In this document: piece by piece, positions 38,578 through 39,589 of the stretch
Numbering within the stretch: position 1 is the stretch's first letter
Layout of the letters: each line of letters begins with the position of its first letter
Source: Candidatus Saccharimonadota bacterium
GTDB taxonomy: Bacteria > Patescibacteriota > Saccharimonadia > Saccharimonadales > UBA4665
Direction: 5' to 3'
NCBI GenBank assembly: GCA_028289125.1
Contig: JAQGGZ010000011.1
Coordinates: 1-41,753 of the forward strand
DNA length: 41,753 bases
The notes under the pieces: generated by a model
Database searches by the model: none
The model's input: only the letters and a program-made list of their open reading frames with translations
What the model was told of the DNA's origin: nothing
Position numbers and translations under genes: made by a program

Positions 38578-38653
38578 GGCTCTTTAGCTCAGTTGGTAGA
38601 GCAGAGGCCTGAAGAGCCTTGTGTCCCCAGTTCGAGTCTGGGAGGAGCCACCA
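38578..38653 (+). tRNA. tRNA-Phe(GAA)
   Basis: A 76-nt tRNA with encoded CCA. The anticodon arm GAGGC-CTGAAGA-GCCTT gives anticodon GAA. Acceptor GGCTCTT pairs with AGGAGCC (one G-U), and the T-arm is CCCAG-TTCGAGT-CTGGG. Confidence 0.96.
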
Positions 38654-38693
38654 AAGAAATAGCCCTAGCGAAAGCTAGGGCTATTTCTTTGGT
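38650..38693 (+). terminator. tRNA-Phe terminator including discriminator and CCA
   Basis: A perfect 20-bp stem (38650-38669 with 38674-38693) closed by a GAAA tetraloop. The 5' arm begins at the discriminator A, so the complete ACCA end is inside the hairpin. Confidence 0.9.
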
Positions 38694-38823
38694 GCCCGTT
38701 TCTAGTGCCTCGAACTGGGACGCGCGAAGCCGCCAGTTCGGTGAAGCGAGGAGGCGCACAGAGGCTCGCTTCGAGCACGCCGCAGGGGAAGAGGCTGCTC
38801 GCAGCCGATCTGGGAGGGCCCCA
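38694..38823 (+). repeat. tRNA-Phe-derived composite element (inverted T-arm plus split direct T-arm)
   Basis: 38709-38721 (CTCGAACTGGGAC) is the reverse complement of the tRNA-Phe T-arm (one base shorter). CCAGTTCG at 38733-38740 and TCTGGGAGGGCCCCA at 38809-38823 are direct copies of the two halves of the T-arm/3' end. They are split by 68 bp with hairpins (GGCTG-CTCG-CAGCC; GAAGCGAG with CTCGCTTC) and the string TTCGAGCACGCCGCAG, close to the one in the tRNA-Val element. No protein-coding content; a long open frame across the tRNA is a by-product of GC bias. Confidence 0.6.
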
Positions 38824-39328: not shown

Positions 39329-39357
39329 TTGTATTACAACCCGTCTTTCCGTATAAT
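39329..39357 (+). promoter_or_regulatory. Promoter of tRNA-Gly
   Basis: TTGTAT at 39329-39334 and perfect TATAAT at 39352-39357 are separated by 17 bp, 15 nt before the tRNA. Confidence 0.7.
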
Positions 39358-39372
39358 CGCCATGGTACAAAT

Positions 39373-39449
39373 GCGGGTCTAGCTCAGTTGTTTAGAGCGC
39401 ATCCTTGCCAAGGATGAGGCCACGGGTTAGAGTCCCGTGACCCGCACCA
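39373..39449 (+). tRNA. tRNA-Gly(GCC) with altered elbow
   Basis: A 77-nt tRNA with encoded CCA. The anticodon arm CATCC-TTGCCAA-GGATG gives anticodon GCC, and all stems pair perfectly. The D-loop is AGTTGTTTA (G19 replaced by T) and the T-loop TTAGAGT (C56 replaced by A). The usual G19-C56 tertiary pair thus appears as U19-A56. All other invariant positions (G18, T54, T55, A58) are kept. Confidence 0.93.
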
Positions 39450-39488
39450 AAGAAAAAGTCCCAGCTCGTCTGGGACTTTTTCTTTGGT
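39446..39488 (+). terminator. tRNA-Gly terminator including discriminator and CCA
   Basis: A perfect 19-bp stem (39446-39464 with 39470-39488) around CTCGT. The 5' arm starts at the discriminator base and includes CCA. Confidence 0.9.
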
Positions 39489-39589
39489 CTTTGGCCGATG
39501 ATTCTAACCCGTGGCCTCATCGAAAATTATAAAGCGGCCACGTGCGCGGCACTTGTGCTGCGCGTTAGAGTCCCGTGACCCGCACCAAA
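39489..39589 (+). repeat. tRNA-Gly-derived composite element with 26-bp direct repeat of the tRNA 3' end
   Basis: 39500-39520 is the inverted copy of tRNA positions 39414-39434 (20 of 21 match), running from the anticodon stem into the T-loop. GGCCACG near 39536-39542 and the 26-bp GTTAGAGT...CACCAAA at 39564-39589 are direct copies of the tRNA (the latter identical to 39426-39451). They are split by a 21-bp hairpin insert (GCGCGGCAC/GTGCTGCGC). All copies carry the unusual A56. The layout matches the elements after tRNA-Val and tRNA-Phe and also looks like an attachment-site pair. Confidence 0.65.

Follow-up and report, generated by a model that had tools for sequence, protein, structure and literature searches.

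The window, the whole stretch of 41,753 nucleotides that was analysed, is contig C7 of genome G000 (874 kb, 89% complete). It carries at 39373–39449 (+) a tRNA-Gly(GCC) gene that is called by both ARAGORN and Rfam RF00005, with an RF00005 score of 69.1 bits against a cut-off of 29. Element by element the gene reads GCGGGTC TA GCTC AGTTGTTTA GAGC G CATCC TTGCCAA GGATG AGGCC ACGGG TTAGAGT CCCGT GACCCGC A CCA. The anticodon GCC (39407–39409, +), which decodes GGC and GGU, sits within a 7-nt loop, the 3' CCA is encoded, and the discriminator is A73, as in all three tRNA-Gly genes of the genome, Gly(GCC), Gly(UCC) and Gly(CCC). Each of the four stems is entirely Watson-Crick, as the first-pass annotation had stated. 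A putative sigma-70-like promoter, TTGTAT - 17 nt - TATAAT (39329–39357, +), which we recognise by direct reading from its consensus match, ends 15 nt 5' of the gene. At the other end a perfect 19-bp hairpin with an A-run and a T-run (39446–39488, +) is terminator-like, and its 5' arm begins within the CCA end; tRNA-Phe is likewise followed by a perfect hairpin at 38649–38694 (the two hairpins are of 19–21 bp) with a 5' arm that begins in CCA. As these 5' arms start inside the CCA end, a terminator formed in this way would sequester CCA.

The tertiary pair G19-C56 is nearly universal, has long been regarded as invariant in elongator tRNAs, and provides tRNA models with a fixed landmark. In the gene described here the D-loop AGTTGTTTA (39386–39394, +; direct reading) places G18 at 39390 and U19 at 39391, and the T-loop TTAGAGT (39427–39433, +; direct reading) places A56 at 39429, confirming the report of the first-pass annotation that U19 and A56 stand in place of G19-C56. 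The numbering of position 19 is unambiguous because relatives have 8-nt D-loops (AGTTGTTA). The canonical bases G15, G18, C48, U54, U55 and A58 are all retained, and with them the G18-U55 and U54-A58 partners. In comparison with a canonical bacterial tRNA-Gly(GCC) (PMC4810234; RF00005) the cloverleaf, the stems, G18-U55, U54-A58, G15-C48, CCA and the GCC anticodon are shared, but the 19–56 pair is U-A (A-U in relatives) and not G-C, and the discriminator here is A73. The U19-A56 pair does not exclude tRNA function, and in all tested respects bar this pair the feature appears to be a tRNA-Gly.

A whole-genome Rfam search of G000 returns 43 tRNA matches, and reading these in the 89%-complete assembly shows a single gene each for Gly(GCC), Gly(UCC) and Gly(CCC); every tRNA except Gly(GCC) has C56 together with GG in the D-loop. 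This search finds no second canonical tRNA-Gly(GCC) in the assembly, the presence of which might have left the copy described here silent. Ala(UGC) and Ile(GAU) are also missing from the assembly, so that at 89% completeness the sole-gene status of Gly(GCC) is not strict. Of the 125 glycine codons counted in eight window ORFs, 104 are GGC or GGU, and the demand for this tRNA is therefore high. We take the gene to be most probably a working tRNA and the ordinary decoder of GGC and GGU.

These observations bear on the proposal that the gene encodes a cell-wall tRNA comparable to the staphylococcal non-proteinogenic tRNA-Gly species (PMC4052509, PMC9976931), which avoid EF-Tu. Those tRNAs carry the same amino acid and are also altered at D-loop positions 18–19, including the position 19 that is altered here, and FemAB-family proteins do occur in some relatives that bear the swap. 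In the staphylococcal case, however, GG is replaced by UU or CU, T-stem changes weaken EF-Tu binding, and the tRNAs are additional isoacceptors that stand beside proteinogenic genes and are accompanied by Fem transferases, whereas here G18 and the G18-U55 pair are kept, position 56 compensates, and a sole Gly(GCC) gene must decode. A search for FemAB was negative in G000 and four further genomes of the family, five in all, as well as in several outgroups that bear the swap, and we regard a cell-wall role as extremely unlikely.

The first-pass annotation had proposed that positions 19 and 56 be scored for covariation across Saccharibacteria, and we did so in the family (93 genomes) and the order (393 genomes). 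In the family, U19 and A56 are present in 30/30 of the loci first read, which span many genera, and A19-U56 was later found in one further genome (G089). The acceptor, anticodon and T-stems of the 30 loci differ from one another by compensatory changes, and the constancy of U19 and A56 against that background is more than chance. An assembly error is ruled out by the occurrence of identical bases in many independent genomes. Decay to a pseudogene is ruled out by the covarying stems together with the gene being the only one of its kind in the assembly, in agreement with the earlier suggestion that the pair is selected and not decayed.

When the order is scanned with a Gly(GCC) 3'-half pattern in which position 56 is left free, matches are obtained in 360 of the 393 genomes, and position 56 is A or T in every tRNA-Gly(GCC) among the approximately 160 matches listed. 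The converse scan of the same 393 genomes, in which position 56 had to be C or G, gives 42 matches of which only three are tRNA-like, most of the matches being plainly non-tRNA and without stems. One, in G035, is a canonical gene and lies on a contig of 4 kb; the second, in G385, is an additional gene on a 6-kb contig; and the third, in G192, is an interrupted extra copy. An A56 gene is present besides in each of these genomes. The C56 copies, the only three found in the 393 genomes, are thus each an extra copy that looks foreign or is interrupted. In the G192 copy (locus L271, G192:C1:544700-544850) the D-arm of a C56 Gly(GCC)-like gene is broken by about 90 nt with CGGCACG...CGTGCCG ends, which is possibly an intron or an insertion. 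Among the 33 genomes that the 3'-half pattern leaves unmatched, an intron-bearing or other Gly(GCC) gene is rejected for the split BLAST hits examined, which are His, Met and other tRNAs; in G319 and G356 the absence of a match coincides with assembly gaps or contig ends. A single locus (L323, G205:C14) has a Gly(GCC) with T-loop TTAGGGT (A58 changed to G), an acceptor mismatch and a partial copy nearby, a possible case of decay or exchange.

Reading both loops in 103 distinct sequences gives U19-A56 in 51, A19-U56 in 51 and G19-C56 in one. A56 is always accompanied by U19 and U56 always by A19: in a GTDB scan that fixed position 56 as A or T and placed no constraint on 19, the matching base is found at 19 in 115/115 (at least 115 loci). 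The covariation is perfect and includes the reverse pair, A19-U56, which supports the earlier proposal of a compensatory and selected U19-A56 pair.

Both orientations are found within each of six families (f1, f8, f28, f30, f31 and f34), and inside one genus in f1 and f34 (g39, g90). There must therefore have been at least seven switches, a lower bound that takes the GTDB groups as monophyletic; the counts given above cover genomes related by descent, and independence comes solely from the mixed-orientation families. Each switch between U-A and A-U is a double transversion, presumably passing through a mismatch, whereas the route from A19-U56 to G-C requires two transitions via a G-U wobble and is the easier path. 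No replacement of the 19–56 pair by G-C is seen in the 393 genomes of the order. The combination of repeated double transversions with no return to G-C is the strongest hint of what may be selection against G-C.

It is this combination that speaks against neutral drift, in which an adequate A-U pair would have arisen once and simply persisted. That A19-U56 occurs in several phyla shows it to be tolerated, as drift requires, but the easier replacement by G-C is absent from 393 genomes that have undergone at least seven double-transversion flips, and most other tRNAs of the same cells show no such change. We consider drift quite unlikely.

Integration of mobile elements could also contribute. 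Downstream of the gene, positions 51–77 from the 3' part of the tRNA recur as a direct partial copy at 39561–39587 (+), 26/27 identical, and positions 41–62 as an inverted partial copy at 39500–39521 (−), 21/22 identical; both copies keep A56, as the first-pass annotation had observed. The tRNA-Gly(GCC) gene thus looks like an attachment site, and the copy at 39561–39587 looks like the attachment-site scar of a mobile element. Downstream 3' copies of Gly(GCC) are also seen at six other loci (L143, L145, L175, L187, L208 and L220), often preceded by a T-stem inverted repeat, and in G247 (C17:21531-52554) the complete gene is separated by 31 kb from a 3' copy, with U56 in both. These copies, too, have the appearance of integration scars. 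If an element integrating into the 3' half of the gene imported a T-arm, a changed position 56 would then force a change at 19, and the copies in the window, those in relatives and the G247 pair all agree with such events. At best, however, this accounts for the flips and not for the missing G-C, and the D-loop partner already matches in every case; adjoining stem positions, moreover, need not follow a flip. Mobile elements could aid the flipping of the 19–56 pair, but as the explanation of the swap they are very unlikely.

Beyond the order, A19-U56 or U19-A56 is also carried by three further genomes belonging to the class. In the rest of the phylum G19-C56 is found in most of the matched genes, with A19-U56 in f69, f82 and f112. 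Outside CPR, among the matches listed, A19-U56 Gly(GCC) genes occur in records of Clostridia, Labilibaculum, Flavobacteriales, Bdellovibrionaceae and SAR86, that is in Clostridia, Bacteroidota, Bdellovibrionota and SAR86, and a C56 Gly(GCC) was not found by pattern in 27 of the 29 genomes of this A19-U56 kind, those of CPR included. The Clostridia-type genes with A19-U56 have U73, as opposed to A73 in G000. U19-A56 is found, among the matches listed, only in Saccharibacteria and in other records, some of them of Patescibacteria, that resemble Saccharibacteria.

A possible reason for this restriction lies in pseudouridylation. The substrate consensus of TruB is GUUYRANYC (PMC7912444), and GUUAGAGUC of the tRNA-Gly(GCC) described here breaks it by having A56 where Y is required, while GUUUGAGYC of the A19-U56 relatives fits. 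U56 fits the consensus while A56 departs from it, and this may be why U19-A56 is confined to Saccharibacteria-like records. G000 encodes a TruB of 231 aa, and the U19-A56 tRNA may escape normal pseudouridylation at position 55.

Among the tRNAs on the collected loci, 16 of the 38 distinct tRNA-Ala sequences have A19-U56 or U19-A56, complementary throughout, and U19-A56 is also present in a single Gly(CCC) whose body resembles that of Gly(GCC). G19-C56 is retained by Gly(UCC), by most Gly(CCC) and by about 155 distinct tRNAs of all other isotypes on these loci. When Ala(GGC) is scanned across the order, position 56 is C in the majority of cases and T in a large minority. In Gly(GCC), then, the 19–56 swap is obligatory, whereas in Ala it is optional. 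Beyond what the first-pass annotation had noticed, the swap extends to the whole class, with repeated reorientation and with recurrence outside CPR and in tRNA-Ala. A different position of the elbow seems to be altered in tRNA-Cys(GCA) at five loci (L068, L076, L088, L089 and L230), where A18 occurs with G55 instead of G18-U55 (D-loops AGTAGTT, AGGAGTT and AGAAGTT with T-loops TGC... or AGC...), a possible further compensatory elbow change in several Saccharibacteria; tRNA-Cys(GCA) of G000 is canonical, with G18-U55.

GlyRS and AlaRS are both class II synthetases. Mobile domains that touch the tRNA elbow are described for both enzymes, Ins3 in human GlyRS and C-Ala in AlaRS (PMC9908026), and if such contacts were gone or altered here, Gly and Ala elbows could be free to change or co-adapted. 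The swap is indeed confined to Gly and Ala tRNAs on the collected loci. In G000 the AlaRS (C11, L379) is about 637 aa long, stops at the end of the editing domain and lacks any match to DHHA1/C-Ala, and the GlyRS is of the short single-chain bacterial type (432 aa). GlyRS, AlaRS and TruB were located in stretches of G000; a motif search of the collected loci for GlyRS and TruB gave no match. Yet Gly(UCC) and Gly(CCC), which are charged by the same GlyRS, retain G19-C56, tRNA-Ala(GGC) of G000 is canonical despite an AlaRS without C-Ala, and A19-U56 is also found in Clostridia and others. As relaxation alone would leave the absence of G-C from Gly(GCC) unexplained, we consider a synthetase-driven origin unlikely.

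Because the orientation of the pair is free, a positive reader of a single base is unlikely, and the strength of the pair or an unwanted G-C signal would be at issue instead. The latter would involve an enemy or unwanted partner that grips G19-C56, such as a tRNA-cleaving toxin or a modifying enzyme, and that is escaped by any A-U or U-A pair. An indifference to orientation with only G-C barred has the look of an anti-determinant, and recurrence of the swap in unrelated phyla is in keeping with this, but the hypothetical partner would need to have persisted across the whole class, and we give this explanation little weight.

We propose with high confidence that the U19-A56 pair of tRNA-Gly(GCC) is selected and functional. 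In this proposal the elbow would be closed by a Watson-Crick U19-A56 in place of G19-C56, and selection would act in two ways, keeping 19 and 56 complementary and excluding G-C at 19–56 in this isoacceptor. The elbow pair is exposed and Watson-Crick; RNase P, 23S rRNA and T-boxes all grip it, and ribosomal protein L5 makes contact with it (PMC4810234). A U-A or A-U pair can probably preserve the flat face with one hydrogen bond fewer, and complementarity would be kept because RNase P, 23S rRNA and other partners grip the exposed face.

Why G-C should be avoided is a more tentative matter. If, as seems to be the case, having a two-hydrogen-bond pair counts for more than its orientation, then a slightly softer elbow becomes the likeliest reason, and we make it our first choice while holding it to be somewhat doubtful. 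Changes in the tRNA elbow alter translocation and frameshifting (PMC4810234), and Ala and Gly tRNAs have strong G-C anticodons that are said to require tuning for uniform decoding (PMC7566577). A softer elbow would offset the very strong GCC anticodon helix and might keep Gly(GCC) decoding or translocation level with that of other tRNAs. Against this, Pro and Arg(NCG) tRNAs, which also have strong anticodons, keep G19-C56 (few were sampled), and so do Gly(UCC) and most Gly(CCC). There is perhaps not quite an even chance that an isoacceptor-specific elbow code exists, in which G19-C56 is actively selected against in Gly(GCC) throughout Saccharibacteria, repeatedly elsewhere and optionally in tRNA-Ala, and in which the strength or identity of the pair is adjusted to suit the anticodon or the synthetase.

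Isotype-specific loss of near-universal tertiary pairs has a parallel in eukaryotic tRNA-Ala (Westhof et al. 2020, PMC7566577), likewise within the Ala/Gly group of G-C-rich codons, although there it is 15–48, 54–58 and 30–40 that change and here it is 19–56, in bacteria, from which the altered 15–48, 54–58 and 30–40 pairs are reported to be absent (PMC7566577). The G19-C56 pair is also missing from tRNA-Pyl and mitochondrial tRNAs (PMC7609411), but these rebuild or lose the D/T contact, whereas in the present case the contact survives as an A-U Watson-Crick pair and the tRNA is otherwise ordinary. In the open literature, outside which most subscription journals fall, we found neither A19-U56 nor U19-A56 reported for bacterial tRNA-Gly, and no description of a 19–56 swap in CPR.

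U19-A56 in Gly(GCC) offers a simple sequence marker of Saccharibacteria. With either orientation in use and no return to G-C, these bacteria may be regarded as a natural experiment on the purpose of the 19–56 pair, and they would help to show whether tuning of the elbow follows the anticodon.
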